Shown in pieces: positions 18,157 through 35,912 of a stretch of DNA of 36,080 bases. This stretch comes from Lachnospiraceae bacterium. Its GTDB lineage: Bacteria > Bacillota > Clostridia > Lachnospirales > Lachnospiraceae. The first letter of the stretch is position 1. Each line of letters begins with the position of its first letter. The stretch is taken from the NCBI GenBank assembly GCA_024681775.1, contig JAILAF010000075.1, positions 1-36,080 on the forward strand. The letters run 5' to 3'. The notes beneath the pieces are model-generated. The model saw only the letters and a list, made by a program, of their open reading frames with translations, made no database searches and was not told where the DNA came from. The position numbers and the translations under genes were made by a program.

Positions 18157-18884
18157 AGTCCTTCCCTCCTGGTATGATAGGACAGATATGCTTTGATCAG
18201 TTCCGGATACTTCCCTCTGGCTACCGGAATATCCGCATCTGTCATATGAACATATTTGGAATCATAGGATTTCACTGCGCCGAGATTGACCAGATACGCT
18301 CTGTGAATCCGGAAAAAGTCTTTTCCGCAGAGATTCTCAAGGTCCGAAATCCTTCCGTAATACTCAATATCACCACTGCTTTCCATGTGAAGAACAATCC
18401 TTCTGTCATAGATTTCAGCGTATTGCACTTCGGAAAGGAGGACTCTGGTATTTGTTCCGCCGCTTTTTACAGTAATCGTACGACCGGTTTCCTCCTGTTC
18501 GGAAAGTGCAGCCTCCATAAGCCTTTGATCCTCTGCCTGCCCGGCGGCTTTCAGATAGATCTCCTTTATCCTGGCTTTCGTGAATGGCTTTACAATATAG
18601 TGAAACGCACCTACATCAAATGCACGAAAAACCTGGTCTTCCAAAGCCGTCACAAAGACGATCACGGTTCTCTTGCCGGATGATCTCAGCATCCTTGCCG
18701 CATTCATCCCGTCGATCCCGGGCATCTGGATATCCAGAAACAGAATATCGGAATCAAAGTTTGCAGAGAGTATCCCCTTTGCATCCTCATACAATACGAT
18801 TTCAATCTTTTCGGAGACTTCTTTTACCGATTCCGCAATAAGATCCCGTATTCTTTTATCATCATCACATATAGCCAGTTTCAT
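18153..18884 (-). CDS. LytTR-family response regulator
   Basis: A 243-residue protein has an N-terminal receiver with the acidic pocket CDDD (residues 6-9), the phospho-acceptor Asp51 (LFLDIQMPG) and VKPF. A C-terminal LytTR DNA-binding domain runs from about residue 135 (SEVQYAEIYDRRIVLH, FFRIHRAYLVNL, PVARGKYPEL). Its own promoter and the promoter at 16679-16746 carry matching half sites, so it probably activates itself and the four-gene operon downstream. GAGAGG precedes the ATG. Confidence 0.96.
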   Translation of the reverse strand: MKLAICDDDKRIRDLIAESVKEVSEKIEIVLYEDAKGILSANFDSDILFLDIQMPGIDGMNAARMLRSSGKRTVIVFVTALEDQVFRAFDVGAFHYIVKPFTKARIKEIYLKAAGQAEDQRLMEAALSEQEETGRTITVKSGGTNTRVLLSEVQYAEIYDRRIVLHMESSGDIEYYGRISDLENLCGKDFFRIHRAYLVNLGAVKSYDSKYVHMTDADIPVARGKYPELIKAYLSYHTRREGL

Positions 18885-19380: not shown

Positions 19381-19755
19381 TCACTTCCCATCCTCGATGG
19401 CATCGATCATGACCTTGATCACCTTCTCCTCATCCAGCGGCTTGGTGATAAAATCATAGGCACCGCGGCGGATGGCCTCCACCATCTTCTCTTTCTGGCC
19501 GGCGGCTGTGATCATGATCACCTTCGCATGGGCATCGTCCCTGTGGATGAGGCTCAGGGCCTCGATGCCGTCCATCTTGGGCATGGTAATATCCATGGTG
19601 ATGATGTCGGGATTCAGCTTTCGGAACTGCAGCCAGCCTTCTTCCCCGTTTTCCGCTTCACCCAGAACTTCGAAGTTATGCTTTTCCAGTATATTACGCA
19701 GGAGTCTGCGCGATGTTTTGGAATCATCCACGATCAATACCGTACCGATGGGCAT
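19381..19755 (-). CDS. CheY-like stand-alone receiver
   Basis: The 124-residue protein is only a receiver domain: acidic pocket VDD (residues 9-11), phospho-acceptor Asp55 (ITMDITMPKMDG), a Thr in MITAAG, and TKPL with the conserved Lys. No output domain is attached, so it signals by protein contact, as CheY does, or passes phosphate on. It is the last gene of the operon that begins at 23617 and follows the CheX-like gene by 37 bases. Confidence 0.94.
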   Translation of the reverse strand: MPIGTVLIVDDSKTSRRLLRNILEKHNFEVLGEAENGEEGWLQFRKLNPDIITMDITMPKMDGIEALSLIHRDDAHAKVIMITAAGQKEKMVEAIRRGAYDFITKPLDEEKVIKVMIDAIEDGK

Positions 19756-19792: not shown

Positions 19793-20296
19793 CTATGCCA
19801 GTCCCGCTACCGTAAAAAACAGATTTCTGCCTCTGGCCTTCACCATCATCTTGCAGATGGCATTTTCCACCAGAGGCTCCTCCAGAGGCTCCGCTTCCGG
19901 AGGCAGGAGCTCCAGAAAGGTGCCCTGCTTGCTGAGCTCGGACACAAACATTCCGTTGGAACAGTTCAGAAACTCTCCCACAGCGTCCAGCGCATCCTCG
20001 TTCAGCACCAGCATGTCGGTGCATCCGTATCCGTTGGCGACCTCCAACAGTCCTCCGTCACATTCCGACAGACAGGTCACCAGGCCGTCCTCCCAGACCA
20101 TGACCTGAGTCACCTGATCCCCTTTGGGAAGTGCATCCACCATGTCTACCTTCATCACGGATACATCCGGATCCACATAACGGATCATGGTCTCAAAAAA
20201 TGCATTGTAGACGGGGATGAAACGCGCCACCTCCGGGGGGATCAGCTCTTCGAGCTTCGATTTGATCTTTCCTACCTGAAAAAAGGAATCAGCCAT
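19793..20296 (-). CDS. CheX/CheC-like phosphatase-family protein
   Basis: The 167-residue protein resembles the CheX/CheC fold: a VARFIPVYNAFFETM helix, a middle DAVGEFLNCSNG segment with the ExxN pattern used by CheX/CheC for CheY-P dephosphorylation, then a GTFLELLPP strand and a late FFTVAGLA strand. Its start overlaps the hybrid-kinase stop by 8 bases, and a CheY-like receiver follows, so a CheX-CheY pair that resets the signal is likely. Sequence similarity is modest, so the assignment is moderately certain. Confidence 0.75.
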   Translation of the reverse strand: MADSFFQVGKIKSKLEELIPPEVARFIPVYNAFFETMIRYVDPDVSVMKVDMVDALPKGDQVTQVMVWEDGLVTCLSECDGGLLEVANGYGCTDMLVLNEDALDAVGEFLNCSNGMFVSELSKQGTFLELLPPEAEPLEEPLVENAICKMMVKARGRNLFFTVAGLA

Positions 20297-22712
20297 GCCT
20301 ACTCTCCAACCAGGATTTGATCCTGTTTTCCGTTCCCAGAATCCCTTCGGTATCCAGCTCCGTCACCATGCCGCGCAGGGCCGAAACCTCGGATTTGAGT
20401 TCTCCGGGAAGCTCCATTTGTTCCATTTTTTCCATCCGGTCGTCCATGACATCCACATTCAGCTCGCCGGTAGCCAGCAACAGATCCTCGTACAGCTCAC
20501 CGAAAAGGTCCGCATCGAAGGCTTCCCTGGCTTCATTTTCCGTTCCGGCAAAAGGTGCCAGCTGTGCATGATAGCTGCGCCAGCAGCGCAGGAATGCGGG
20601 AGTCACCTCCCGAACCGTATCCACATCCTTTCCGGCAGCTGCGTTCTCCAGGAGCTTTGCAGTGCCGGCCAAAGGTACGATACCCACCAGGGCTGCAGAG
20701 CTCTTCATGGCGTGAACCGTAACGCGGTAATCATTCAGGGCATTCCCATCAGGCAGCGCCTTGTACAGGGACTCCAGCTTGTCCGCACTGCCGTCAATGG
20801 TATGGGCAAACTCCTCCAGCGCTTCCATCATCATCTCCCGGTTCAGGAAATGAAGTCTCGCAAGATTCCAGTCCAGACCGTCCACCTCCGGCAGGGGCTC
20901 TCCGTCCATGTCGTCCGGCACTGCGGCGGCACTGCGCGCATTTGCCTGGATCGCATTTTCATCCGGCTCCTCCTGCAGATCTTCCGGCAGGTAATCCCGC
21001 ATGGCGAGCTCCAGACGATCGGGCATGATGGGCTTGGAAAGGAAATCCGTAAAGCCCTCCTCCAGGTAGAACTCCCGGGCACCGTTTACGGTATTGGCGG
21101 TGAGCACCAGGACGGGCACATTTTTGCTGGGGCCGTTTCCGTTCCGGATCCGATGGAAGGCTTCCACGCCGTCCATCTCCGGCATCATATGGTCCATGAA
21201 GATGATGTCGTAATGGTTCTCCTCCGCCATCTTCACACCTTCTTTTCCGCCGGATGCCTGATCCACCTCCACGCCGGTGCGCTTTAAGAGGCTGCGGAAC
21301 ACTTTCCGGTTCATGGCATTGTCATCCACCACCAGGACTCTGGCTTTCGGCGCATAGACCAGGGGCACCAGATGGCTCTTTTCCGTCTCCTCCACCCGCT
21401 GGCGATGGAACTCGCCGATAGACGTCTTGTCGATGATCTCCTGCTTGATGGTGAAGTAGAAATTGGAACCGATCCCCTTCTGGCTCTTCACATCCAGATG
21501 GCTTCCCATGAGCTCCAGAAGGTTGCTGGAAATGTTCAGTCCCAGGCCGCTCCCTTCCGTATTGACCGTATCCAGGGAGTAGAGACGATGGAAGGTTTCG
21601 AAGATCCTGGGCAGTTCTTCCTCGCTGATGCCGATACCGGTGTCCTCCACCTCAAAATGCAGGAATGCAAGGTTTTTCACCTTACGGCCGGTGACGCGGA
21701 AGGTGATACTCCCTTCCTTGGTGTATTTGATGGCATTGTTCAGGAGGTTCGTCAGGACCTGACGGATCCGCATCTCATCGCCGCGCAGATAGTTGGGCAG
21801 GGTGGGATCCACCTCCAGGATCAGTTCCAGCCCCTTTTCCTTGGCTCGCTGCTCCAGCAGCACCAGCACATCGTTCAGCATAGAATTCAGGTAGTAATCC
21901 ACCGGGAACAGCTCCATGCGGCCGGACTCGATCTTGGAGAAGTCCAGCACATCCTCGATCAGGGTCAACAGCAGGTTGCCGGATTTTTCAATATTATGGG
22001 CATACTCGGCGATCTCCTTGTCCGGCTGCTCCCGCAGGATCAGCTCATTCATACCGAGAATGGAATTGATGGGGGTGCGGATCTCATGAGACATGTTGGA
22101 CAGGAACAAAGACTTGCTCTGGTTCGCCCGTCTGGCATCCCGGCGCTTAGCCTCCACCACTTTCAGCATATCGGAGAGGCCGCGCTCCTGCTCCTCCGTG
22201 ATGGCAATCTGCCGGACCGCGAATTTGCTTTTGGTACGGCAGATCCACTGACCGAACAAAAGGATCAGAAATCCAAAGAGCATACGGAAATCAAAATGGT
22301 TCACATCCCCGAACATGAACCAGTAAAAGAGCATCGCCGCCCCCGACAGCAGGATTCCCAGGACCTGCACCTTAAAGATGGAAGGATCCACAAAGGAAAA
22401 GAGCACAAAGGTCTCCAGGAACATGAGATACAGGAAATACAGCACATTCTCCATGCAGACCATAAACACGAAGGAATTCATCATCCAGACGATGCTGAGG
22501 AAATTCTGAAAGGCCGTGGGAGAAAGCACCTTGTTGTGGTCAAAGACCAGGATCAGGATATAGGTAACGATCAGATAAAGAGCAAAGGTAAGTCCCACCC
22601 ATTGAGGTCTCACGGAGAAAAAGAGAATGCTCACGGACTCAATGGTCCCGATCAGCACATAAAAGATCAGGAAGATTCTACGCCAGAAGGCTACATTTTT
22701 CTGATTCGTCAT
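20289..22712 (-). CDS. Membrane hybrid histidine kinase (HisKA-HATPase-REC-Hpt)
   Basis: The 807-residue kinase has about six membrane spans in residues 10-165 with no large external domain. They are followed by a short coiled coil, the H-box SHEIRTPINSILGMNEL with His209, and ATPase motifs NLLNNAIKY, DTGIGIS and GSGLGLNI. The receiver has Asp507 (FMDHMMPEMDG) and the Hpt domain has His667 (VHAMKSSAAL). The ATG at 22712 overlaps the stop of the upstream lipid-kinase-like gene (ATGA) and has GGGGGTG before it. By context its receiver or Hpt could feed the CheY-like protein downstream. The signal is unknown. Confidence 0.95.
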   Translation of the reverse strand: MTNQKNVAFWRRIFLIFYVLIGTIESVSILFFSVRPQWVGLTFALYLIVTYILILVFDHNKVLSPTAFQNFLSIVWMMNSFVFMVCMENVLYFLYLMFLETFVLFSFVDPSIFKVQVLGILLSGAAMLFYWFMFGDVNHFDFRMLFGFLILLFGQWICRTKSKFAVRQIAITEEQERGLSDMLKVVEAKRRDARRANQSKSLFLSNMSHEIRTPINSILGMNELILREQPDKEIAEYAHNIEKSGNLLLTLIEDVLDFSKIESGRMELFPVDYYLNSMLNDVLVLLEQRAKEKGLELILEVDPTLPNYLRGDEMRIRQVLTNLLNNAIKYTKEGSITFRVTGRKVKNLAFLHFEVEDTGIGISEEELPRIFETFHRLYSLDTVNTEGSGLGLNISSNLLELMGSHLDVKSQKGIGSNFYFTIKQEIIDKTSIGEFHRQRVEETEKSHLVPLVYAPKARVLVVDDNAMNRKVFRSLLKRTGVEVDQASGGKEGVKMAEENHYDIIFMDHMMPEMDGVEAFHRIRNGNGPSKNVPVLVLTANTVNGAREFYLEEGFTDFLSKPIMPDRLELAMRDYLPEDLQEEPDENAIQANARSAAAVPDDMDGEPLPEVDGLDWNLARLHFLNREMMMEALEEFAHTIDGSADKLESLYKALPDGNALNDYRVTVHAMKSSAALVGIVPLAGTAKLLENAAAGKDVDTVREVTPAFLRCWRSYHAQLAPFAGTENEAREAFDADLFGELYEDLLLATGELNVDVMDDRMEKMEQMELPGELKSEVSALRGMVTELDTEGILGTENRIKSWLESRHG

Positions 22713-23617
22713 AAGATCACCCCCCTGGGAAGTACAAAGCGGAGGCCTTCCCTGACCATCCGGATTTCCCACTGGGAATCCTCGGCGACAGGAATGCCGT
22801 CCAGATACCCCGTGATCTTCTTATTGCGCTTGACTGCCACCTTCATGGAGGTAGCAAGGAAGGAATTGGTGTCCTTCTTCAGCTCCGCAAAATCCTTATT
22901 CCGCAGGTGTATATAGTACCGCAGACTCTTCACAAGGCCCTCAGACTTGCGATAGCCAACGGTGCCGCGCCCGTCGATGATGACAGGCTCTTCTTCGAAA
23001 AACAGGTTCCCGCCCTGGGAACAGCCGTTGCCGAAATAGATGCTGGAAACATTTCCGTCCATGTGATGGGTGTCGGCAATGATCTGTGCGCCGAAACGGG
23101 TAGCTCCCAGCATACGGGAAAGCAGAAATACTGCCCGGCTGAAAAGCAGATCGATGGATTTGTGGCGGGAAAGAAACGAGCCGGAATAGAACCCCAGAGT
23201 ATACCCCAGAGAAACGATGTTCATGGCTCTGCCGTGATTGGTCTCGATATAGTCGATGGGAACCGCATTTCCGTGGATCATGCGGTCAAAATCGGTGAAA
23301 TAGGAATACTTCTCCCCGAAGATCTGGAGGAAGCTGTCGTTGGACGACGCAGGAATATAAGCAATCTCCACCTGGGAAAGGTCGGAAACCGCATTGATGA
23401 AACTGTTCAGAGTGTCGGAACTGCCGCAGACGTAAAAGCGGATCTGATCCTCGTCAAAGATCTCCTGGATCCTGGAAATGTAATCGGAACGGACCCAGTC
23501 GGAGATCAGGGTAAAGACATAATACTCGATATCATCCACGCCGGACAGAACGGAGCGCAGACGCGCTGTATTGAATTCGCTCCCCGTGTAGGGATCCAGC
23601 AGAAAAATATGAACCAT
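22709..23617 (-). CDS. Diacylglycerol/lipid kinase-like protein with degenerate nucleotide motif
   Basis: A 302-residue protein follows the DagK/YegS fold. The usual GGDGTLNE loop is replaced by GSSDTLNS (in YVCGSSDTLNSFINA), and the GTxND loop reads ASSND (IPASSNDSF). Later segments SSIYFGNG, GGNLFF and GYLDGIPV match the C-terminal lobe. The altered ATP loop suggests weak or no kinase activity, perhaps a lipid- or nucleotide-binding sensor; this is inference. The ATG at 23617 follows GGGGG. It is the first gene of the operon with the hybrid kinase, CheX-like and CheY-like genes. Confidence 0.78.
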   Translation of the reverse strand: MVHIFLLDPYTGSEFNTARLRSVLSGVDDIEYYVFTLISDWVRSDYISRIQEIFDEDQIRFYVCGSSDTLNSFINAVSDLSQVEIAYIPASSNDSFLQIFGEKYSYFTDFDRMIHGNAVPIDYIETNHGRAMNIVSLGYTLGFYSGSFLSRHKSIDLLFSRAVFLLSRMLGATRFGAQIIADTHHMDGNVSSIYFGNGCSQGGNLFFEEEPVIIDGRGTVGYRKSEGLVKSLRYYIHLRNKDFAELKKDTNSFLATSMKVAVKRNKKITGYLDGIPVAEDSQWEIRMVREGLRFVLPRGVIL

Positions 23618-23741
23618 ATAGCCCCCGTATATCACTCCGCACACAATGAGCCGCAAGGGCACTCCCCGGGTATGCAGAAGAAAGTCGTAAATCGGTTTCC
23701 CTCAAGGAAAATGAGAACTTCCAAAAAGGGAGTGTATTAAG

Positions 23742-23998: not shown

Positions 23999-24081
23999 TT
24001 TGACATTTTGTAATCGCTCGCAGCAGAGGCTGCTTCGCAAGGATTTTCTAAGTGAACGCATGTTGCCTTCGGCAAGCATGC
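23999..24081. repeat. tRNA-spacer hairpin repeat, copy 2
   Basis: It begins with the same 40 bases as copy 1, then has a different second hairpin (GCATGTTGCC/GGCAAGCATGC around TTC). Confidence 0.78.
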
Positions 24082-24632: not shown

Positions 24633-24703
24633 TTGCCCGCAGCAGAGGCTGCTTCGCAAAGAAAATCTACAAAAACAGCGATTCGCCTTCGGCGAAGTCG
24701 CAA
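24633..24703. repeat. tRNA-spacer hairpin repeat, copy 5
   Basis: It repeats both hairpins of copy 1 (GCAGC-AGAG-GCTGC, then GCGATTCGCC/GGCGAAGTCGC) with a few substitutions outside the stems. It lies in the leader of the second tRNA operon. Confidence 0.78.
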
Positions 24704-24803: not shown

Positions 24804-27800
24804 TTACTTTCCCTGCAGGGCTTCGACGATGGCCATGTAATCGAAATTGCGATAGGCGGTGAGGACTGTATTCCACAGGTCCTGCTCCTCCGATGGAACG
24901 GCGTACTCCTCCATGTCTTCGAAGAGGGTATCCATCTGGTCGATGTCCATGCCCTCTGCGGCGCGGCGGATCTCGTGGTACACCTCCAGGAGCATCTCCG
25001 CATCGATGGGTGTTTTATCCTCAGCATCCTGCGATGTTGCAAACACGGGAGCAAGGACCTCCAGGAGGTCGAAATACTCCTGCAGGAAGGCATCATTCTG
25101 AGAACGAATGTAGTCGATATCTCCGCTCTTTCCCGCATTTTCCAACTGCTGCGCCTCTTCGCCCAGGGCGGCGGCGCCAACGATCCGGGCAGCACTTTTC
25201 AAAGCATGCACCTTGATGGTGTATGCGCCGAAATCTTCCTCTTCATAGCAACGGTTCAGTTCCTCACTCTGTGCCTCGATGGAATCATAGAAGGTTCGGA
25301 GCACCGTCAGATAGGTTCCCACATCTCCGTTGTTTTTCACACCTGCTGCCACATCGACGGCGGTGCCCTTCAGAAGCTCCAGCTCCGGCGGAAGCTCTTC
25401 GCTATTGGGAGTCGCGTTTTCTTCCTCTTCCGGTGCGTCCACGATCAGTTCTACGGGCAGATAGTGCAGGAGCATGGCTTCCAACTGATCCGAATCGATG
25501 GGCTTAGTCAGGTAATCATCAAATCCCGCTTCCAGATAGGTTTCCCTTGCTCCCAGGATGGCATTGGCGGTAAGGCACACAAAGATCCCGTCCCGGTTGG
25601 GATTTTTCTCATCGGCGTGGATCTCCTGCAGGGTCTCGATGCCGTCCTTTACGGGCATCATATGGTCCAGGAAGATCATGTCGTATTTCTGATTCCGGGT
25701 AAGAGCGATGCCCGCATCTCCACTCTCCGCGCAGTCCGTCCGGATCTGCGTACGACTCAGAAGATTTTGGAAGACGGTGAGGTTCAGGGGATAGTCATCC
25801 ACCACCAGCACACGTGCTTCGGGAGCGATAAATCGTCTGACGGATCCGCTGTTCATCCCGGCGGCATGCCTGCCGGCCTCCTCGTAATTCCCCATGGGTT
25901 CAGGGGATACGATCTGTTGCCCAACCAGGAAGGAGAATTCCGATCCTTCTCCGTATACGCTGGAAACCTCCAGCCGGGATCCCATCAGCTCCAGCAGACT
26001 CTTGGTGATGTTCAGTCCCAGACCCGTTCCTTCGATATTGCGGTTGCGTTTTTCCTCGATGCGCTCGAACTCCGAGAAGAGCCGTTCCATATCCTCGGGC
26101 TTGATGCCGATGCCGGTATCCTTGACGGTGATCCGCAGGAACACCGTATCCTTCACGTTTTCGTCAGGCTCACTGTGCACGGAGAAGGTGACGCTTCCGC
26201 GGTTCGTATATTTGACGGCATTTGTCAGGATGTTGACCATCACCTGACGGATCCTGACCTCATCGCCCCTGAGACGGCCGGGCACAGACTCGTCGAAATC
26301 CAGATGCAGCTCCAGTGCCTTCTCCTCCGCAACGGGGCGGATCACATTGACCACATCAAACAGAAGGGAACCGAGCTCGTACTCGCTCTCCTCCAGCTGG
26401 ATCTTTCCCGCTTCGATCTTGGAAAAATCGAGGATGTTGTTGATCAGCCCAAGCAGGGACTTTCCTGCGCTCTTGATGTTCTTGGAGTACTCGGTGATCT
26501 TCTCGTCACTGCACTCCCGCAGGATCATTTCGTTCATGCCCAGAACCGCATTGATGGGAGTGCGGATCTCGTGGGACATGTTGGCAAGGAAGGAACTCTT
26601 GGCCTTGGAAGCCTCCTCCGCCACGGCCTTTTCGAAGCCCAGCTCCTGGACCATTGCCTTCTCGTAGTAGATACAGTTCTCTTTACGGTTGAAGCCGTTG
26701 TAAATAGCCATGGCCATCTGCCGGCAGCTCTCGTAGCCACAGCAGGTACAGTCGATATGCCTGGAGGCTTCGTCCTTCTTGTTCATGCTCAGGAAGATTT
26801 CTTCCAGCGCTTTTTCATCGGCCTCTTTATATCTGCAGCTCTCGGATCTGTCGGTATAGCCTCTGAGGTAGTCCTCCAGATGCAGATGAGTAAACTGCGC
26901 GTTGTAATTTTTCAGGCGCTCCTCCGGCGTATCCGGTCTGGACCAGGCGTCCCCCGCAGTAGCCTTCTTCGATTTTTCCCGAATATCCAGCAGGGCATAG
27001 AGGGCATCATCCGTCTCCGCCTTGTCGGGATTGACGGCGGTTCCGCAGATACAGCCGTTCTTACAGTTCAGGGCATCGATCACCAGGAAGGGCGTCTTTC
27101 GGTCACGGATCCGCTCCTCATTTTTATGGAGCCATTCGTACAGATGCTTTTCCCCTTCCATCTGGCGGATGTAGACTTCGTCCCCCAGGAACCATTTGAT
27201 GTTCTCTGCCAGGCCGCCGGGGGTGGGATAGAAGGAACCCAGACCGTACTCGATCTCACTGTGGACGGAAGGGCCGGAGATCCCGTGCTCCCGCACATAG
27301 CGCATGAGATGGTCAAAAGTCACATTGTACTGCACCAGTCCCGCATTGTGAGGATCCTCGATCTCGATCTTTTTGGCGATACAGGGGCTGATGAAGGCAA
27401 ATTTATCCTTGATCCCCATTTCCTTCCGGGCATAGATCGCAGCGCACATAAGAGGACTCTGCACGGGGAAAAGCCGGTCCAGCAACGAGGGTAGATACCG
27501 CTCGATGTAGGAGACCAGGGCAGGGCAGGGCTGGGAGATCCCGCCCACAAAATCGTGCTCACGGATGTAGTTCAGATATCCCCAGGTGGTGATATCCGCG
27601 CCGAAAGAAACGCTGATGATATGGCGAACGCCCATCTGCTTTAATCCGCCCAGCACGCTTTCATACTCCTCGGGATAGTTCGCACGGAATGCGGGCGCCA
27701 GAAGCAGGGAGATCTCCTCTCCCTTTGCCAGATCTGCAAAAAAGCGCTCCGTGTCATCGTGGAATTCCCGGGCACCGTGCTGGCAGGCATCGATACAGCT

Positions 27801-27950
27801 GCCGCAGGCAACACAGCGGTTACCGTCCACATCGATCCTGGGCTTTCCGTCTTTTTCCACGGAAACACAGGCACCGATGGCACTGCAGACCTTGATGCAC
27901 TTATTACAGCCTATACATTTGTCATTCGTGTAAATGACACTGTCACTCAT
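24804..27950 (-). CDS. Sensory [FeFe]-hydrogenase fused to a hybrid histidine kinase (Fd-HydA-like-FeS-HisKA-HATPase-REC-Hpt)
   Basis: This 1048-residue cytoplasmic protein has no membrane span. Residues 12-22 and 46-56 are two ferredoxin 4Fe-4S motifs. Residues about 80-340 follow the [FeFe]-hydrogenase catalytic fold with H-cluster cysteines Cys142 (SQPCPAL), Cys190 (ISPCIAKK), Cys296 and Cys300 (NCKNGCICG). The proton-transfer Cys next to Cys142 is Pro, which argues for sensing rather than turnover. A further Fe-S motif lies at Cys401-Cys409 (CTCCGYESC). Then come the H-box with His460, the ATPase (GTGLGLNI), a receiver with Asp762 (FLDHMMPVKDG) and an Hpt domain with His915. GAGG precedes the ATG. 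It is the last gene of the 11-kb operon. A role in sensing H2 or redox state is inferred from family knowledge. Confidence 0.93.
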   Translation of the reverse strand: MSDSVIYTNDKCIGCNKCIKVCSAIGACVSVEKDGKPRIDVDGNRCVACGSCIDACQHGAREFHDDTERFFADLAKGEEISLLLAPAFRANYPEEYESVLGGLKQMGVRHIISVSFGADITTWGYLNYIREHDFVGGISQPCPALVSYIERYLPSLLDRLFPVQSPLMCAAIYARKEMGIKDKFAFISPCIAKKIEIEDPHNAGLVQYNVTFDHLMRYVREHGISGPSVHSEIEYGLGSFYPTPGGLAENIKWFLGDEVYIRQMEGEKHLYEWLHKNEERIRDRKTPFLVIDALNCKNGCICGTAVNPDKAETDDALYALLDIREKSKKATAGDAWSRPDTPEERLKNYNAQFTHLHLEDYLRGYTDRSESCRYKEADEKALEEIFLSMNKKDEASRHIDCTCCGYESCRQMAMAIYNGFNRKENCIYYEKAMVQELGFEKAVAEEASKAKSSFLANMSHEIRTPINAVLGMNEMILRECSDEKITEYSKNIKSAGKSLLGLINNILDFSKIEAGKIQLEESEYELGSLLFDVVNVIRPVAEEKALELHLDFDESVPGRLRGDEVRIRQVMVNILTNAVKYTNRGSVTFSVHSEPDENVKDTVFLRITVKDTGIGIKPEDMERLFSEFERIEEKRNRNIEGTGLGLNITKSLLELMGSRLEVSSVYGEGSEFSFLVGQQIVSPEPMGNYEEAGRHAAGMNSGSVRRFIAPEARVLVVDDYPLNLTVFQNLLSRTQIRTDCAESGDAGIALTRNQKYDMIFLDHMMPVKDGIETLQEIHADEKNPNRDGIFVCLTANAILGARETYLEAGFDDYLTKPIDSDQLEAMLLHYLPVELIVDAPEEEENATPNSEELPPELELLKGTAVDVAAGVKNNGDVGTYLTVLRTFYDSIEAQSEELNRCYEEEDFGAYTIKVHALKSAARIVGAAALGEEAQQLENAGKSGDIDYIRSQNDAFLQEYFDLLEVLAPVFATSQDAEDKTPIDAEMLLEVYHEIRRAAEGMDIDQMDTLFEDMEEYAVPSEEQDLWNTVLTAYRNFDYMAIVEALQGK

Positions 27951-27977
27951 ATCAGGATCGCCTCTTTTTCAGCAAAT

Positions 27978-29501
27978 TTATTCCAGTCCTTTTTTCAAAG
28001 CATTTGCGGCCTCCTTCTGAAGGCCGGAATCATAGGAAAGCATCGGTTTTACATCTTTCCCCCGGATCCTGCGGTCCGCATAATTGCGGGTCAGCTTCAG
28101 GACCAGAGGCATCAGCGCCAAAACGCCGATGAGATTCGGAATCATCATGAGACCATTGAAGGTATCCGACACATCCCAGACCAGGGTGGAATCCATCAGG
28201 GCACCGCCCATGATCAGCAGCACAAAAACGCTGCGATAGACCTTTGACCAGTAGATTCCTCCCAGGTACTCCACCGCCTTTCCGCCGTAATAGGACCAGC
28301 CCATAACGGTGGAAAAAGCAAACAGGGCGATGATCAGTACCACAAAGACTTCGCCGGGTCTCCCCAGACATTTTCCGAAGGCGGTTGCCACCAGGGTCAC
28401 ATCATCCACTCCCTCAGCCACCAGTCCCGTGGTCAGGTCGATGGCACCGGAACCCAGCACCACCAGAGCGGTCATGGTACAGATCACGATGGTGTCCACA
28501 AATACCTCGGCGATGCCCCACATTCCCTGTTTTACGGGCTCTCTGGCACAGGTATTGACATGGGCCATGACGGAGGATCCCAGACCTGCTTCATTGGAGA
28601 ACACGCCGCGCTTACAGCCGCTTCGAATGGTATTTAGCGCCACCTGCACCGCCGTTCCGGCAATGCCGCCCTTCAGCGCATCCTGCCCCAAAGCGAACCG
28701 GAAAATGGAAGCAAAAATAGCCGGCAGCGTGGTGATATGGATCAGGACCACAATGAGACATCCCAGCACATACAGGATCGTCATGAAGGGGATCAGCCAC
28801 TCCGCGACGTAAGCCAGTCTGCGGAATCCGCCGGTGAGAATGATGGCCCCGGCCAGGGTAAGGGCTCCGCCGATCCACCAGTTGACCGCAGGTAATCCCA
28901 GAAAGGTACCGAAATCCATATCCTTCAGGAAGGTGGCACGGGTGTTCAGGGTGATCTTGTTGATCTGTCCCATGTTGCCGATGCCGAAGGATGCAAGAAC
29001 GGTAAAAATACAGAATGCCACTGCCAGCGCTCTTCCGAGCCCTTTGCAGTTCCTAAAGGATCCCACACCGTCCCGCAGATAGTACATGGGACCGCCGGAC
29101 CAGGCGCCGTCCGAATTTCTGCGCCGGAAATATACACCCAGCACATTCTCGGAAAACTTGGTGGCCATTCCCAGCACGGCAGCGATCCACATCCAGAACA
29201 CGGCACCCGGGCCTCCGACGCAGATAGCGGTGGAGACTCCGGCGATATTGCCCGTTCCCACGGTGGACATGAGTGCCATGCAGAAGGTCCTGAACTGGGA
29301 CAGGGCGCCCGCGTCGTTGACGATACGTCCTTCCTTCCGGATAGAGCCGAAGGTTCCCTTACACCAGGATTTCAGATGAGAAAACTGAAAAGCCCCCGTC
29401 ACAAGGGTACAGATCAGTCCGGCCCCCAACAGAAGCGGCATTCCGAAGGTTCCCCACACAAGGGAATTCACCGCGTCATTGATACGTACAACTGTTTCCA
29501 T
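27978..29501 (-). CDS. AGCS-family sodium:alanine/glycine symporter
   Basis: The 507-residue protein has about eleven hydrophobic segments and the family signature GTGNIAGVSTAICVGGPGA near residue 82, plus GVFSNEAGLGSS and FAFSTVMGWSYYGG. It takes up alanine or glycine with Na+ (or H+). It starts 9 bases after the stop of the DegV-containing kinase and ends 27 bases before the hydrogenase-kinase. A nutrient transporter placed between two sensor kinases may supply a substrate linked to the signal, or act as part of the sensory unit; that is inference. Confidence 0.95.
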   Translation of the reverse strand: METVVRINDAVNSLVWGTFGMPLLLGAGLICTLVTGAFQFSHLKSWCKGTFGSIRKEGRIVNDAGALSQFRTFCMALMSTVGTGNIAGVSTAICVGGPGAVFWMWIAAVLGMATKFSENVLGVYFRRRNSDGAWSGGPMYYLRDGVGSFRNCKGLGRALAVAFCIFTVLASFGIGNMGQINKITLNTRATFLKDMDFGTFLGLPAVNWWIGGALTLAGAIILTGGFRRLAYVAEWLIPFMTILYVLGCLIVVLIHITTLPAIFASIFRFALGQDALKGGIAGTAVQVALNTIRSGCKRGVFSNEAGLGSSVMAHVNTCAREPVKQGMWGIAEVFVDTIVICTMTALVVLGSGAIDLTTGLVAEGVDDVTLVATAFGKCLGRPGEVFVVLIIALFAFSTVMGWSYYGGKAVEYLGGIYWSKVYRSVFVLLIMGGALMDSTLVWDVSDTFNGLMMIPNLIGVLALMPLVLKLTRNYADRRIRGKDVKPMLSYDSGLQKEAANALKKGLE

Positions 29502-29510
29502 ACCGCAGCG

Positions 29511-32500
29511 TTACCCCTTCCCCAAAAGCTGCAGGATTCCGTCGTATTCGAAATTCGCAGCCATTTTTCTGATCTTCGCGATCTTCTCACGATCCGCTTC
29601 CGGGATACTGTAACCGGACAGCTCTCCGATGGCTTCCTCGATCATATCGCAGTCCATCATGCCTGCCGCATCCGCGATGGCATCATACGCACTCTCCAGC
29701 AGATAGGAATCGATGGGAGGGCCGCTTTCCGTCTCCGACTCCTGCACTTCTTCCTCTCCGCACAGCGGTGCCAGCACCTCACGGAACCGTGCATACTGCT
29801 CCATAAATGCGGTGTGATGCTCCTGGAGAAAGGCTTCGTCTCCGCTTTTTCCCGCCAGCTCCAGTGCCTGTGCCGCTTCGGAAAGTTCCATGGCACCGAT
29901 GAGTTTTGCGGAAGATTTCAGGGCGTGGATCTTGATGGTATAGTTTGCCCAGTCTCCCGCACCGAAGAAGCCTTCCAATTCTCCGGTCTTGGCCGGTGCG
30001 GAATCGTAGAAGATTTTGATGACCGTACGGAGGGAGTCCTCGGATCCGCTGTTTTTCAGCGCCAGCGCTCCGTCGATCCCTTCGATATTCTCGTACCATT
30101 TTGCCTCAGCTTTTGCAGGCTCTTCCTTTGCAGGATGTTCCTCCGCATGCCCTGCTTCGGCAGGGAGCTCCTCCTCTTTCCTGTTCTGAGCAGGCGCAAG
30201 GCCCGGGATCAGGGACGAGATATTGTAGGTCTGATTGCCTCTGACAAAATACAAAACGCCGAAGCAGCCCGGTCCACAGTTGGAGGTGATGGCAGCGGAG
30301 GCTTTCTGGAAGATCACATTCTCAAAGTACGCATATCTGGAAATCTCATCCCGGATCCACAACAGGGTTTCCTCCGGAACGTCAGCATAGGTAATAAAAC
30401 AGATCTCAGGGTCAGGAACGATCTCCACGGGGAATGCCTTACGGATATATCGCCTGTAGGCATGTCTCCGTCCTCCGGCCCAGACGCCGATGAGCCCGGA
30501 TTTTTCCTTCCGGAAGGAAAATGCGGGACGCAGATCCAGTGCTCTTGCGAAATCGCTGACCTTTCTGCCGATGAGGCCGCCCGCCTGCAGATAGTCCGTT
30601 CTGTCCACAACGAAACTGCATCTGAGCCGGTCGGCAGCGGCATTCAGTTCGACAATCATGTCCTCCACGGAAACATCCTGCTGTGCCAGCTTGCAGGCGA
30701 TAAGGGTCAGGATACCCGTGGTACTGGAGACACTTCCGGAATTGATGATCGTGACATTGTCAAAGGACTTGGCCGCCTCCACAGCTCTCGCATAATCTTC
30801 ACTGAGCTTCGAAGAAATGGCGATGTAGAACAGATGATGTCCGTACTTGAGACACTCCAGGAAAAATGCCACATAGGCTGCAGGATCCGGCGGGGCACTT
30901 TCCGCCTTTTTCCCGCTCTTGAAGTAGCGCATCAGCTCCTCCGGATCCATATCGTAGCAATCCCGGAAGGTCCCCGCTTCCGTATGCACGTTGAAGGGAA
31001 GGATCGGCAGGTAAGGATTGTCCATCATTTCATCCGGCAGATCGCACATACTGCTGGTGGTGACCACCACGGGAACTTTCCGCTTGTAGCCGGAGGTGCT
31101 GCTCATCTCTCCGCCCTTCTGATGATGATAAGCAGACAATACCACCTTATCCGAAGGGATGTGTTTGATCAGGGCAGTTTCCAGGTCATCGCCGGAGACG
31201 GGCTTTAAGAGATATCCGTCAAATCCGGCTCTGTTGTATATCTGCTTGTTGTCGGAACCGGCATTGGCCGTCAGCACCAGAACCGCCGTGGTGGTATTCA
31301 GACCGCCGCTTTGGGTCCGGATGGCCTCCAGGCACTCAATACCATCCATTTCCGGCATCAGATGATCCATCAGGATGACATCGTATTTGTATTTCACCGT
31401 AAGTCCCAGCGCATCTCTGCCGCTGATGGCAGTATCCACACGGATCCTGGTTGCGGCAAGGAGCTTGGTCTCCACCGTGAGGTTCATCTCATTGTCATCC
31501 ACGATGAGGATCCTTGCACGAGGCGCCACAAAGCTGCTCTCATAGGCACTTCTTCTGGCAACGCCGTAGTTGCGGATGTTCAGTTCACCCACAGGGGTGG
31601 GATCCGCTACTCCCTGCCGGATCATCACATGGAAGGAGGAGCCTTCGCCGTACACACTGTCCACGGAAATGGTTCCGTCCATCAGATCCACCAGCTGCTT
31701 TACGATGGAAAGACCCAGTCCGGTGCCCTCAATGTGACGGTTCTGTGCTTCATCCACACGCTTGAAGGCATCAAAAAGATAGGGAATGGAGTCCTTCTTG
31801 ATTCCCATTCCGGTATCCGTTACCGACATCCGCAGCTGGATCTCGCCGTTTTCCGCCTCCTCGCACTCCACGTGGAGTCCGACGCTGCCCTCCTTCGTAT
31901 ATTTCACCGCATTGTTCAGCAGATTGATCAGGATCTGCTTGACCCTGACCTCATCTCCGAAGAGGGCAGTAGGCACGGTGGGATCCACGCTGACGTCCAG
32001 CGTAAGGCCCTTATCCTGTGCCTTTTGCCAGATCATGTTCACAATCTCACTCAGAAGATCTCCCACATTGTAGTTCACGGGCACGATATCCATGCTCCCC
32101 GCTTCGATCTTGGAAAAGTCCAGGATATCATTGATCAGCGCCAGAAGCATCCGCCCGGATCCCTGGATACCGTTGGCATCCTTGACGATCTCATCCGAAG
32201 CATTTTCCTCACGGAGGATCAGCTCATTCAGTCCCAGAATGGAATTGATGGGCGTACGGATCTCGTGGCTCATACTGGAGAAGAAGCGGTTCTGGGAGCG
32301 GTTCAGTTCCTCCGCTCTCTCAGCTTCCTTCCGGGCCCTGTCATTTTCATCCATATACAGGCGGTTCAGGAACAGCACAGAGATGAAGCAGATGATCCCC
32401 ACCATCACCAGTGCGATAAAGGTATCCACATAAAACATGCCCTTGGTATGCTGGGGAACCCATTCGGGATGGGTATACTCCGTCAGGAATAATCCGCCAT

Positions 32501-32912
32501 ACAGCACCACCAGGAAAATAAAGATCACATTCCGCTCTCTGCCGGAAAGCACCAGCGCCGCAAAGAGAAAACCGAAAATGACCCAGGTTACACCACCGCC
32601 TTCCACGCCGCCGCCGAAGAAGAAAATGCCGGGCAGCGCAAAAAGGACCAGCCCGTAGGTGATCAGCCGGCTCGCAACCCCAAGTTTGTTTTTGTACAGG
32701 CAGATAATGGTGATAAAGGGCACCAGGATCAGGATCACTGCCAGCAGGACGATCTCCGCAAGATACTCTCCCGTCAGGATGTCCCCCACCAGCGAGATCA
32801 GTACTGCCAGCTCGCCGATAATGGTAAACAGCAGAAAAATACGCTCCGAAAGCACTCTCTCGGGGTTGCGGATTTCCTTTATGGCCTTGCCGATCGCACG
32901 GAACAAACTCAT
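29511..32912 (-). CDS. Hybrid histidine kinase with an internal DegV domain (HisKA-HATPase-REC-DegV-Hpt)
   Basis: The 1133-residue kinase has about six membrane spans (residues 22-185), the H-box SHEIRTPINSILGLNEL with His216, ATPase motifs NLLNNAVKY, DTGMGIK and GTGLGLSI, and a receiver with Asp516 (LMDHLMPEMDG). Residues about 609-890 are a full DegV domain: VVVTTSSMCDLP, SAPPDPAAY, IAISSKLSEDYARAV, DYLQAGGLIG and NCGPGCFGVLYF match the fatty-acid-binding DegV/FakB fold. An Ala/Glu/Lys linker leads to an Hpt domain with His996 (IKIHALKSSAKL). DegV proteins bind fatty acids, so the kinase may link lipid status to phosphotransfer. It is third in the operon, 24 bases after the previous stop. 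Confidence 0.94.
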   Translation of the reverse strand: MSLFRAIGKAIKEIRNPERVLSERIFLLFTIIGELAVLISLVGDILTGEYLAEIVLLAVILILVPFITIICLYKNKLGVASRLITYGLVLFALPGIFFFGGGVEGGGVTWVIFGFLFAALVLSGRERNVIFIFLVVLYGGLFLTEYTHPEWVPQHTKGMFYVDTFIALVMVGIICFISVLFLNRLYMDENDRARKEAERAEELNRSQNRFFSSMSHEIRTPINSILGLNELILREENASDEIVKDANGIQGSGRMLLALINDILDFSKIEAGSMDIVPVNYNVGDLLSEIVNMIWQKAQDKGLTLDVSVDPTVPTALFGDEVRVKQILINLLNNAVKYTKEGSVGLHVECEEAENGEIQLRMSVTDTGMGIKKDSIPYLFDAFKRVDEAQNRHIEGTGLGLSIVKQLVDLMDGTISVDSVYGEGSSFHVMIRQGVADPTPVGELNIRNYGVARRSAYESSFVAPRARILIVDDNEMNLTVETKLLAATRIRVDTAISGRDALGLTVKYKYDVILMDHLMPEMDGIECLEAIRTQSGGLNTTTAVLVLTANAGSDNKQIYNRAGFDGYLLKPVSGDDLETALIKHIPSDKVVLSAYHHQKGGEMSSTSGYKRKVPVVVTTSSMCDLPDEMMDNPYLPILPFNVHTEAGTFRDCYDMDPEELMRYFKSGKKAESAPPDPAAYVAFFLECLKYGHHLFYIAISSKLSEDYARAVEAAKSFDNVTIINSGSVSSTTGILTLIACKLAQQDVSVEDMIVELNAAADRLRCSFVVDRTDYLQAGGLIGRKVSDFARALDLRPAFSFRKEKSGLIGVWAGGRRHAYRRYIRKAFPVEIVPDPEICFITYADVPEETLLWIRDEISRYAYFENVIFQKASAAITSNCGPGCFGVLYFVRGNQTYNISSLIPGLAPAQNRKEEELPAEAGHAEEHPAKEEPAKAEAKWYENIEGIDGALALKNSGSEDSLRTVIKIFYDSAPAKTGELEGFFGAGDWANYTIKIHALKSSAKLIGAMELSEAAQALELAGKSGDEAFLQEHHTAFMEQYARFREVLAPLCGEEEVQESETESGPPIDSYLLESAYDAIADAAGMMDCDMIEEAIGELSGYSIPEADREKIAKIRKMAANFEYDGILQLLGKG

Positions 32913-32936
32913 TGACTGTACTCCTTCACGCGTTGC

Positions 32937-34958
32937 CTAACGGAACAGGTGCACCATTACTTTTTCAAATTCATGCAGATTCACGGGTTTTCCCAGGAAT
33001 CCGTCGAAGCCCTCCTTCATAAAGAGCTCCCTTGCGCCGGATACCACATTGGCCGTCAGCGCCACAATGGGGATCCTCTTTCCGCCGATATCCTCCGATT
33101 GTCTGCGCAGGCGTTTCATCGCCTCCACACCGTCCATTTCCGGCATCATATGATCCATGAAGACGATGTCATATTCCTTCATTGCGCATTTGGACAATGC
33201 GGCGGCGCCGCTTTCCGCGGTATCGACGATCATTCCGTAATCGGCGAAAAGCCCCTGGGCCACCACCAGATTCATGGGTTCATCATCCACAATCAGTGCC
33301 CGGATGCCGGTCAGATCCGGCTTTTCTTTACGGGTATCAAAATCCAGATCCGTAACGTCGCGGCCTTCATTCAGCACCTTGATGACGGAATAAGAATAGA
33401 GGGGCTTCGGGATCACCAGAATGCCGCTTCCCGCGGGAGCGGTAAATCCTCCGGATGCCACCACCGTCACCATGATATTTTTTCTGCACAGCTCCTCGTA
33501 GAAGGAAGGATTTGCCTCGTATTCTTCCTGTCCGGTAAAGAACCATTTCACACCGGGATCTAAGGCCCGGCGTTTCATTTCATCCTCGTTTTCCACCTGA
33601 TACAGGGAAACCTGAGTTCCCAGCGCCAGATTCATGTTCATCTGCCGGTAGAAATCCCTGATCTTCGGTACAGCAAATTTACTGCTGTTCACATAGACCA
33701 GTACATCCCCCTTCACATCGGCGTTCAGTGACAAGGACGGTGCGGGATTCACCACCTTTTGGGGAATAGTCACGCGTACGCAGGTTCCGTCTCCGGGATT
33801 GCTTAAAACCTTAACAAAACCACCCATTCTGTGGGCAAATCCATAGACGATGGACAGTCCGAGGCCGATGCCGCCGGTGCTTCGATCCCTTCGTTTATCT
33901 GCCTGATACAATCCCTTCGTGAGAGAGGAAAGTTCCTTACGGTTCATTCCGACACCCGTGTCGGAAATATCAATGTGCAGGTTCACGCCGTAATTCGTTC
34001 GCTCCGCGTAGATTTTCAGCAAAATGCCGCCCTGCTTGGTAAAGGCGATGGCATTGGCGAGAAGCTGCCGCAGGATCTTATGGAGTTTTTTAATATCGCC
34101 ATTCAAAACTGCGGGAATATCCGGCGAGAGATCCACCACCAGTTCCAGTTCCTTTTTATCCTTCATGGCATGGAAAGACGTCACCATATCGTGAAGGAGG
34201 GAAGCCACCATGTAGTTCTCCTCCTCCAGAAGGGCATTTCCGCGTCTCGCCTCGGTATAGTCCAGGATATCATCGATCTGGCCGGTGAGACGGACACCCG
34301 CTTCTTTAATGGCCAGCGCCTCCTCCCGTACCCCTTTCCGGATCAGCAGATCGGCCATGCCGCTGATCACATTCATAGGCGTGCGGAGCTCATGGGAAAT
34401 ATTGGAAAAAAAGTCCTCCACATCCTGCTCGATGGTTGCGATCTCCTGCTCCTTCTGCTTCTCCTTCTCCGCATTTGCCAGTCTGCCCTGGATGGAACGA
34501 ACACAACCGTAGTACACGGCTACAGCCACGGCAAAATGCAGCATTTCCGTGGATACAAATAAAAAGTCAGGGGTTACGAGCCCCTTCCGGACAGCAATGA
34601 TGATATGCACCATCATAAGGAAAAAGCATTCTCCCAGAAACAGATTCATCATGTAGATTTTGTCCAGGAAGGAAAATGCAATGATCACCATGCAGTAGAC
34701 GACCACCACGTCATACATGCTGGTCAGATGAATTCCATGAAAATAGATGGCAAGAAGGGCATAGATCAAGTAGCAGTTCTCTCTGAAATTGGCTGTACCC
34801 CGCTCCGTGATATGAAGCACCCAGACCAGAACCGTACCGATAAAGATCAGGGGGATGACCCACATCTCCCATTTCAGCGCAATACTCTCGATTGTGAGTG
34901 CAAAGCAGGACAATGATACCAGCGTAATGATAAACTGGTCATTCCGCATCCGATCCAT
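32937..34958 (-). CDS. Membrane hybrid histidine kinase with a degenerate and an intact receiver
   Basis: The 673-residue kinase has about five or six membrane spans (residues 8-155), an H-box SHELRTPMNVISGMAD with His189 (a variant of the set in the neighbouring kinases), ATPase motifs LANAIAFTK, DTGVGMN and GIGLGLSIV, and a region (about 410-525) folded like a receiver but lacking the phospho-acceptor Asp. An intact receiver with Asp602 (FMDHMMPEMDG) follows. There is no Hpt domain, unlike the other kinases here, so phosphate must leave through another protein's Hpt. It starts 32 bases after the two-receiver gene. Confidence 0.93.
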   Translation of the reverse strand: MDRMRNDQFIITLVSLSCFALTIESIALKWEMWVIPLIFIGTVLVWVLHITERGTANFRENCYLIYALLAIYFHGIHLTSMYDVVVVYCMVIIAFSFLDKIYMMNLFLGECFFLMMVHIIIAVRKGLVTPDFLFVSTEMLHFAVAVAVYYGCVRSIQGRLANAEKEKQKEQEIATIEQDVEDFFSNISHELRTPMNVISGMADLLIRKGVREEALAIKEAGVRLTGQIDDILDYTEARRGNALLEEENYMVASLLHDMVTSFHAMKDKKELELVVDLSPDIPAVLNGDIKKLHKILRQLLANAIAFTKQGGILLKIYAERTNYGVNLHIDISDTGVGMNRKELSSLTKGLYQADKRRDRSTGGIGLGLSIVYGFAHRMGGFVKVLSNPGDGTCVRVTIPQKVVNPAPSLSLNADVKGDVLVYVNSSKFAVPKIRDFYRQMNMNLALGTQVSLYQVENEDEMKRRALDPGVKWFFTGQEEYEANPSFYEELCRKNIMVTVVASGGFTAPAGSGILVIPKPLYSYSVIKVLNEGRDVTDLDFDTRKEKPDLTGIRALIVDDEPMNLVVAQGLFADYGMIVDTAESGAAALSKCAMKEYDIVFMDHMMPEMDGVEAMKRLRRQSEDIGGKRIPIVALTANVVSGARELFMKEGFDGFLGKPVNLHEFEKVMVHLFR

Positions 34959-34990
34959 AACAGACCCTCTCTTACCTTAACAATTCTCGA

Positions 34991-35800
34991 TCAAACCCAG
35001 TCTTTCAGGTAATCCAGCAACTTCTCTTTCGGCGTCGCTTTCAGGATATATCCGTCAGGGTTCAGCTCCTTCAACTGCCGGATCTCTTCTTCCGTAGCAA
35101 CACCTGTCAGAAAAATAATGGGAATCTCCGCAGTCGCAGGATCCTCCCGAAGCATCTGCAGCACCTGCGGTCCGTTCACCACAGGCATATCGTAGTCCAG
35201 AAGCACCAGATCCACGGGATTCTTCCGAAGGAAATTGACGGCCTGCATCCCGTCGGTCCCCACATAGGTCTTGTAGGTATCCTTGAGCCAGGTACGAACC
35301 ATGGCTGCAAAAGCGGGATCGTCATCCACAAGAAAAATCTTCTTCTCCGCCGTATTTGAGGCGGCTGTGGTTGCTCCGGAAGAAGCACCCGCGGGTGCTT
35401 CTGAAGCCGAAGCATCTCCTCCACACAGTTCAGTTACCTCTGTGCAGAACAGGTCGGGATTCACGGGCTTCACAAACCATCTACTTGTATCAAGAATGGG
35501 AAATATCCCGGAAAGTTCGCTTTTATGTCTGGCTTCACCGATCACCAGAACACTGCTTTGAATGCCGGAAAGCAGGGAACAGACCTGTTCCAGAAAACTG
35601 TATTCCGCAGATCCTTCCATAACATTTTCAGGAAGATAAAGAACATAGACACCGGTCTCGGAAGCAAGGGACGGAAGGGAATCATACCCATCCGTTACAG
35701 CGGTCACCCGGATCCCTCGATCCGTCAGTTTCCTCTCCAGGCCCCTGGCAATGATGCTCATTTTATGAAGAATAAAAACAGCGTTTTGGGAACTGCTCAC
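34991..35800 (-). CDS. Two-receiver response regulator without output domain
   Basis: A 269-residue protein has an N-terminal receiver-like domain (residues about 5-125) without an obvious phospho-acceptor Asp, an Ala/Ser linker, and a C-terminal receiver with VDDDP, Asp202 (LLDYDMPVVNG), LTG and KATP. It has no DNA-binding or enzymatic output. The start is the GTG at 35800, 9 bases after GGAGG; an ATG upstream at 35818 overlaps that site. It is the first gene of the 11-kb operon, so it may be the common phosphate acceptor of the kinases that follow. Confidence 0.88.
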   Translation of the reverse strand: MSSSQNAVFILHKMSIIARGLERKLTDRGIRVTAVTDGYDSLPSLASETGVYVLYLPENVMEGSAEYSFLEQVCSLLSGIQSSVLVIGEARHKSELSGIFPILDTSRWFVKPVNPDLFCTEVTELCGGDASASEAPAGASSGATTAASNTAEKKIFLVDDDPAFAAMVRTWLKDTYKTYVGTDGMQAVNFLRKNPVDLVLLDYDMPVVNGPQVLQMLREDPATAEIPIIFLTGVATEEEIRQLKELNPDGYILKATPKEKLLDYLKDWV

Positions 35801-35842: not shown

Positions 35843-35871
35843 ATTGTAGCAAAGCAGTAAAGCGCATTCAA
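35843..35871 (-). promoter_or_regulatory. Promoter of the 11-kb sensor-kinase operon
   Basis: TTGAAT (35866-35871), a 17-bp spacer, then TACAAT (35843-35848). It follows a terminator and lies about 40 bases before the GTG start, so the operon has its own transcription start. Confidence 0.82.
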
Positions 35872-35884
35872 GTAAATGAAAATT

Positions 35885-35912
35885 AAAAAAAGAGCAGATC
35901 ACTCTGCTCTTT
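35885..35912 (-). terminator. Terminator of the upstream transcription unit
   Basis: AAAGAGCAG and CTGCTCTTT (35889-35897, 35904-35912) pair around six bases and are followed on the minus strand by a T-tract. It ends a unit that begins beyond the window, probably another RNA gene cluster given the repeat at 35996. Confidence 0.88.

Follow-up and report, generated by a model that had tools for sequence, protein, structure and literature searches.

A five-gene Lachnospiraceae operon as a candidate two-kinase, one-Hpt phosphorelay with a hydrogenase module

Results

A five-gene signaling locus

We explored a 36,080-nucleotide stretch of DNA (the window) from a Lachnospiraceae bacterium (GenBank assembly GCA_024681775.1, contig JAILAF010000075.1), which is contig C39 of a 2.9-Mb assembly of 143 contigs that is 92% complete, and focused on five adjacent genes, P1 to P5, that code for signaling proteins and a symporter (Table 1). 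An initial annotation, made from the sequence alone, had described these as same-strand genes with gaps of 9-32 bases and had interpreted them as a multi-input phosphorelay hub. All five open reading frames (ORFs) are on the minus strand, with gaps of 32, 24, 9 and 27 bases in the order P1-P2-P3-P4-P5. The domain content that had been assigned to P2-P5 was matched by Pfam and NCBIfam, including DegV and Hpt (histidine phosphotransfer) domains in P3, the AGCS assignment of P4, the hydrogenase-hybrid kinase with Hpt in P5, and no Hpt in P2 by Pfam.

Table 1. Features of the five-gene locus and its flanks (window positions)
Feature	Position	Strand	Description
Terminator-like hairpin	35889..35912	-	Strong, with T-run; just upstream of P1 and of the promoter-like site
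Promoter-like site	35843..35871	-	TTGAAT-17-TACAAT, TG before -10 (motif scan)
P1	34991..35800	-	269 aa, GTG start at 35800; pseudo-receiver (no acceptor Asp) and active receiver
P2	32937..34958	-	Hybrid kinase; six N-terminal helices (probably transmembrane), HisKA-HATPase-pseudoREC-REC, no Hpt
P3	29511..32912	-	Membrane hybrid kinase, HisKA-HATPase-REC-DegV-Hpt (Pfam/NCBIfam)
DegV domain of P3	30228..31082	-	
P4	27978..29501	-	AGCS amino-acid/Na+ symporter, intact; Na_Ala_symp/agcS (Pfam/NCBIfam)
P5	24804..27950	-	2x[4Fe-4S], FeFe-hydrogenase-like H-domain (Fe_hyd_lg_C), C-terminal FeS motif, HisKA-HATPase-REC-Hpt
Terminator-like hairpin	24682..24696	-	About 110 bases past the P5 stop

The catalytic residues expected of a phosphorelay are largely in place. 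Kinases P2, P3 and P5 carry intact H, N and G motifs, and the acid pocket, acceptor Asp and Lys are present in their receivers and in the second half of P1; the acceptor Asp is missing from the first half of P1 and from the middle domain of P2. An AlphaFold model of P2 (mean predicted local distance difference test score, pLDDT, 81.8) contains the six N-terminal helices, the kinase, an Asp-less receiver-like domain at residues 418-534 and an active receiver, whose residues D558, D559, D602, T635 and K657 are invariant in 49 rows, as are the kinase residues. H996 and K999 of the P3 Hpt are invariant in 38 rows, the P5 Hpt bears its phospho-His, and P4 is full length with a TIGR00835 score of 400.4 bits versus a cut-off of 272.65.

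P1, whose GTG start is preceded by the strong ribosome-binding site AGGAGGGAG, had been called a two-receiver protein. Pfam detects a single Response_reg domain in P1 and has no match in its first half, and a profile comparison of the two halves gave no significant match. Both halves are modelled as a receiver fold (AlphaFold, pLDDT about 95), so the earlier description stands as to fold; across 31 aligned rows no acceptor Asp is conserved in the first half, and the second half has a full set of predicted active-site residues. As judged from model and residues, P1 is predicted to be a two-receiver protein with one working receiver, its second half.

The membrane kinases occur as a pair with one Hpt

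We next considered how the P2-P3 pair is built in relatives. A contig scan with the DegV domain gave 525 loci, of which the best 80 were used, so the class of pairs with Hpt on the DegV kinase is over-represented in the counts below. These 80 loci are mostly Lachnospiraceae by title, many of them ruminant-gut and with Butyrivibrio isolates included. Cultured relatives with the pair include Butyrivibrio sp. NC2007 (L140) and VCD2006 (L117). A DegV-bearing ORF of at least 700 aa occurs in 46 of 299 family genomes; 57 of the 60 rows with such a frame were taken (the other 3 being from genomes already represented), and all 57 fetched loci also have kinase or receiver domains. Loci were annotated with profiles built for this analysis, with Pfam as an independent check. 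From 150 distinct DegV-kinase ORFs, 20 were left out of pairs on account of contig edges, split ORFs or the lack of a complete HK-REC neighbor (22 in an initial set of 128 pairs). Trees and the count of cheA-cheW-mcp genes use the 128 pairs, and neighbor counts use 130 pairs for which complete copies were preferred.

Among the 130 complete pairs the Hpt is in the DegV kinase in 78, in the upstream kinase in 49, in neither in three and in both in none. Exactly one Hpt is thus present in 127 of the 130 pairs (76, 49, 3 and 0 in the 128-pair set). Pfam agreed with this division. In the upstream-Hpt class it detected the domain in 48/49 upstream kinases and in 0/49 of their DegV partners; in the DegV-Hpt class it did so in 38/38 DegV kinases, sampled from 76, and in 0/49 of the upstream kinases (a sample in which one row is from L128). 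The Hpt His and Lys are invariant across Hpt-bearing rows. The two genes overlap by 4 bases in 74/128 pairs; those of the window do not overlap. As nearly every pair has one Hpt and none has two, this reciprocal distribution favors a predicted relay in which two kinases use one Hpt.

A competing explanation is that these are independent kinases clustered by duplication or co-regulation, with P2 and P3 forming a heterodimer, or P2 binding P3, and no phosphate being shared. It accords with P2 and P3 being related membrane kinases found side by side in all 130 pairs, and with the kinase tree, in which one change in the location of the Hpt separates the two classes. However, the intact receiver of P2 would then need an Hpt or a phosphatase role, and the absence of Hpt from one partner goes with its presence in the other. 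We consider independent kinases rather unlikely.

The Hpt of P3 was probably borrowed from another kinase family rather than moved from P2. In the Hpt tree it groups with the Hpts of Cache and hydrogenase kinases (SH-aLRT 92; 37 P3 Hpts of 76 sampled), with which it also has a C-terminal extension in common: median lengths from His to the end are 134-137 residues in the P3, Cache-kinase and hydrogenase-kinase Hpts, whereas P2-type Hpts have a median of 98 (range 55-165). Replacement is thus likelier than a move of the P2 Hpt to P3, which was set aside.

Several loci depart from these arrangements. Loci L109, L250 and L251, which were not counted as pairs, have DegV on a P2-like kinase with no REC, Hpt or adjacent kinase, and by their predicted domains this is a third arrangement of the DegV kinase. 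In L249, also outside the pair count, the DegV kinase is split and a stand-alone gene upstream codes for REC-Hpt. In the rearranged locus L170 an Hpt-less DegV kinase (L170:8168-11488), with a C-terminus weakly like P1, lies beside a P2 without a receiver.

P5 and the question of hydrogen sensing

The H-domain of P5 has the four H-cluster cysteines and a C-terminal Cx2Cx4Cx16C motif, lacks the proton-transfer Cys and, by alignment, has S in place of M353 and L in place of M497; the same active-site swaps are found in group D TamHydS, according to the accessible part of PMC8163306. All 10 P5 orthologues keep the H-cluster and C-terminal cluster cysteines, and nine keep those of the N-terminus, the exception being the truncated L040. 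A P5-like module (E 1e-70 or better) is present in 26/31 genomes of the host genus. An apparently swapped kinase half of P5 was dismissed as an artefact: among its nine best matches, this half shares 53-54% identity with its counterparts in other P5s, leaving out sister G003, and 53-55% with Cache kinases and others.

The initial annotation had named H2 as an input. This plain reading of P5 is weakened by our searches for the H-cluster maturases, as HydE, HydF and HydG were each over cut-off in 0/31 genus genomes, two of which are 98-99% complete, versus HydG in 75 and HydF in 83 of the 193 genomes searched (the 31 included). For HydF the nine best candidates were scored per genome, and all 29 candidates in the host's own genome. 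Outside the genus, 39 genomes have a P5-like module at the same threshold; by a tally made by hand from the combined search tables, 18 of these have HydF and/or HydG and 21 have neither. It is more likely, from these genome searches, that P5 reports a redox or FeS-reactive signal rather than H2, and this hydrogenase-like sensor may not sense hydrogen at all.

On the other side stands a group-B-like FeFe hydrogenase that is over cut-off in 28/31 genus genomes, which is a point against the redox assignment; the host's own copy (L001, C73:24548-25942) has TSCCP and the other active-site motifs. Because such hydrogenases occur in a genus with no HydE, HydF or HydG over cut-off, an unknown route of H-cluster maturation is possible. 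A P5 that does sense H2, as a group C/D hydrogenase kinase matured by such a route or a diverged one, would also explain the kept cysteines and the TamHydS-like swaps. Given the missing maturases we regard this as improbable, while leaving it some weight.

The other H-domain signaling proteins found in the host genome are two chemoreceptors in which the H-domain is joined to MCPsignal (L003:463-2460 and L002:1216-3204, on contigs C54 and C116); their H-domains are 69% and 57% identical to that of P5.

Conservation of the locus

Relatives with all five genes, proposed earlier as a check, do exist: seven of eight hydrogenase-type loci, the window included, have the full set (the others being G022, G018, G012, L116, L118 and L160; the P1-like gene of G022 is taken from L057 and that of G012 is a 143-aa form). 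The P2-P3-P4 order is constant in all seven. In the six other loci P5 lies upstream of P2, while it is last in the window, and P1 also shifts. The nearest genome, G003, has P1, P2, P3 and P5 at 97-100% identity and in place of P4 only a 29-codon AGCS remnant (G003:C79:71911-71997); its contig, like that of the window, stops shortly after P1, some 250 bases beyond the ORF. The P5 orthologue of G005 (L040) sits on a contig too short to show its neighbors. The initial annotation had named a gene order conserved in no relative as grounds for refuting its reading. For P2-P3-P4 this is not so, but P5 and P1 move about, AGCS is sometimes lost and one P5, that of G021, lies apart from any kinase pair.

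The host genome has a second cluster on contig C122, made up of REC-GGDEF, Cache-HK-REC-Hpt, P2, P3 and P1 genes with no AGCS. The counterpart of this cluster in G003 (L090) does have AGCS, and the two genomes seem, from these gene contents, to have lost opposite copies. Across the family, AGCS follows the DegV kinase at a distance of no more than three same-strand genes in 52/77 named loci, and it is in the strict operon of 29/130 pairs. P4 is dispensable and not a fixed part of the system, a role that the G003 deletion and the operon count rule out. A DUF6976 gene lies between the DegV kinase and AGCS in L134 (L134:11907-12869, 321 aa; Pfam was run on L134 only), and many clusters have genes similar to it in length and place.

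Receivers, Hpts and the fatty-acid input

The proposed hub would have membrane, fatty-acid, H2 and amino-acid inputs converge, through freely exchangeable receivers and Hpts, on P1 as a phosphate-pooling protein. In its favor, 60/130 pairs have a small P1-like gene, coding for REC only, in their operon (a count that also tells against the reading that we prefer), the second P1 receiver is fully active by its residues, and the P3 and P5 Hpts are in one group. However, receivers and Hpts are not nearly interchangeable as had been claimed. The receivers of P2, P3, P5 and a further protein, P6, are mutually 38-47% identical, whereas those of P2 and P3 share 65-67% identity with the corresponding receivers of the C122 cluster; being less alike within the window than between clusters, the receivers are distinct parts, each keeping its own identity. 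Hpts within the window are 22-36% identical. By sequence, P3 and P5 seem to carry Hpts of a single subfamily, which could allow partial convergence. The absence of maturases for an H2 sensor and the deletion of AGCS in the sister genome further detract from the hub, which we judge to be a minor contender; phosphate may be pooled in P1.

The fatty-acid input has likewise lost ground. The P3 DegV domain is full length and over the Pfam and TIGR00762 cut-offs. When mapped to FakB1 numbering by motif, it has Asn for the conserved carboxylate-site His and Leu for the Arg of GGR, and because these two ligand-site residues are changed a fatty acid is not assured as its ligand. The Asn is shared by 121/125 fused DegV copies; seven free DegVs in the fetched loci have His (4), Asn (2) or Tyr (1). 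A fatty acid as the plain DegV ligand is thereby weakened, and by sequence the fatty-acid input of P3 is uncertain.

Candidate outputs

No output domain is encoded among the five genes of the window. This statement of the initial annotation is accurate for the window, but relatives point to an output in cyclic di-GMP (c-di-GMP) or chemotaxis. Specifically, 112 pairs are preceded by a gene in their operon, and in 44 of them this immediate neighbor encodes a receiver-linked c-di-GMP enzyme (25/47 in the upstream-Hpt class, 19/63 in the DegV-Hpt class and 0/2 without Hpt), versus 2/756 genes outside operons. In addition, cheA-cheW-mcp genes are directly upstream of the pair in 8/128 cases, in one deep branch (L246, L253, L254, L256, L258, L260, L261 and L262; checked by Pfam in L246 and, in part, L254). 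From these neighbors we infer an output in c-di-GMP and motility or attachment, with the C122 REC-GGDEF protein as the best candidate in the host genome.

Transcription signals and surroundings

The initial annotation had assigned the operon a single promoter and no internal terminator. The promoter-like site is plausibly well placed, with its TG element and a hairpin upstream; statistical support is absent, as the scan found 8 such sites versus 11.3 expected by chance, a number not above chance. A terminator scan found none in the four intergenic gaps and several inside ORFs, which limits the second claim to the gaps.

A repeat is common to the contig end (36013-36039) and the tRNA region (24032-24058). 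Just beyond the tRNA cluster the window has a further Hpt-bearing hybrid kinase (20289-23662), whose neighbor is a protein with weak, below-cut-off matches to YegS-type lipid kinases. A GHKL kinase with a LytTR regulator (16753-18884) and a stand-alone receiver (19381-19755) are also present.

Discussion

Our preferred reading, which we hold at about even confidence, is that a phosphorelay of two kinases and one Hpt occurs across Lachnospiraceae, that this operon is its variant with a hydrogenase module, and that the output is exerted via c-di-GMP. The multi-kinase relay of the initial annotation thus survives as the likeliest scheme, given an intact but Hpt-less P2, the reciprocal Hpt and the recurrence of the gene set; its H2 and fatty-acid inputs and its interchangeable parts are not supported.

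In the preferred scheme, P2 and P3, membrane kinases with their own receivers that are encoded as a pair, would share one Hpt, here on P3, and phosphate would flow from both the P2 and the P3 receiver to that Hpt. P5 would add a third kinase from an HK-REC-Hpt subfamily whose sister-cluster members bear a Cache sensor, the P5 sensor being an iron-sulfur, hydrogenase-derived module for which a redox or FeS-reactive signal is likelier than H2. P4 would be an accessory symporter acting in amino-acid transport or as a co-sensor. Phosphate would then pass to the second half of P1, the sole free receiver in the operon, and also, in trans, to c-di-GMP enzymes with a linked receiver, for example the C122 REC-GGDEF, and the resulting c-di-GMP level would set motility or attachment. 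A more specific proposal, which we offer tentatively and with less than even confidence, is that sharing of one Hpt is obligatory for the two membrane kinases, the number being maintained at one per pair through loss in one partner and foreign gain in the other, and that an H-domain has been reused as a sensor in bacteria unable to build the H-cluster.

Several observations weigh against this reading. Three pairs have no detected Hpt. In L128 the DegV kinase ends about 300 bases before a contig end, and in L241 the P2 tail lacks the Hpt His. In L228, which branches beside the DegV-Hpt class (support 90), the P2 Hpt is decayed and lacks its His, and the DegV kinase is followed directly by a gene for a stand-alone Hpt, a pattern that we count in favor of the reading. 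Neither partner bears an Hpt in L170 (not in the pair count), and the DegV kinases of L109, L250 and L251 have no partner at all. Since the tree has a single Hpt switch, the 127 one-Hpt pairs are not independent and would represent one event held over a long history; support in the Hpt tree is moderate and based on few columns. As to linkage, G021 has its P5 orthologue (L036) away from any kinase pair, AGCS is absent from the strict operon in most pairs, and it is in 0/49 of the upstream-Hpt class. As to output, the upstream operon gene is something other than a REC-linked c-di-GMP enzyme in 44/63 DegV-Hpt pairs, and the operon includes such an enzyme in 0/8 hydrogenase-type loci versus 29/70 other DegV-Hpt pairs (Fisher p 0.023). 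The density of c-di-GMP genes is 0.41 per 10 kb around pairs versus 0.44 in 14 control loci. An argument from density was therefore dropped, and the c-di-GMP claim is based on operon position.

Several kinases feeding one phosphotransfer step is a familiar design, as in LuxQ/LuxU and Kin/Spo0F. The difference here is that two adjacent membrane kinases are involved, one of which itself contains the only Hpt. Caulobacter HmrABCX resembles the predicted relay in having a hybrid kinase, putative separate histidine phosphotransferases and an effect on c-di-GMP and the motile/sessile choice (accessible text of PMC11481889); that text mentions no DegV or hydrogenase module, and here the Hpt is fused to either member of an adjacent kinase pair. 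The P5 module resembles [FeFe] groups C1/C2 of HydDB (PMC5037454) and group D TamHydS (PMC8163306) in its H-domain, two N-terminal 4Fe4S sites, Cx2Cx4Cx16C motif and lack of the proton-transfer Cys, as far as the available portions of these papers describe them, and the former putatively links group C1 to histidine kinases and C2 to methyl-accepting chemotaxis proteins. It differs from groups C and D, as described there, in that the H-domain is fused directly to HK-REC-Hpt and that HydEFG were not found over cut-off in the 31 host-genus genomes. P3 shares a full-length DegV domain with the DegV/FakB fatty-acid-binding proteins (available part of PMC8892158), but its DegV is inside a hybrid kinase and has the two ligand-site changes given above.

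Among the matches listed in the literature that we searched (on DegV-kinase fusions, Butyrivibrio c-di-GMP, missing maturases and shared Hpts), this gene set was not found described. The paired-kinase family is widespread and, within that literature, apparently undescribed. It appears to be a large signaling module of the Lachnospiraceae and provides a natural experiment on the swapping of phosphorelay parts between partners, and it raises the question of what signal a hydrogenase-like sensor receives in a cell without recognizable hydrogenase maturases. If its output is c-di-GMP or chemotaxis, the module would link membrane and redox state to attachment in gut communities.

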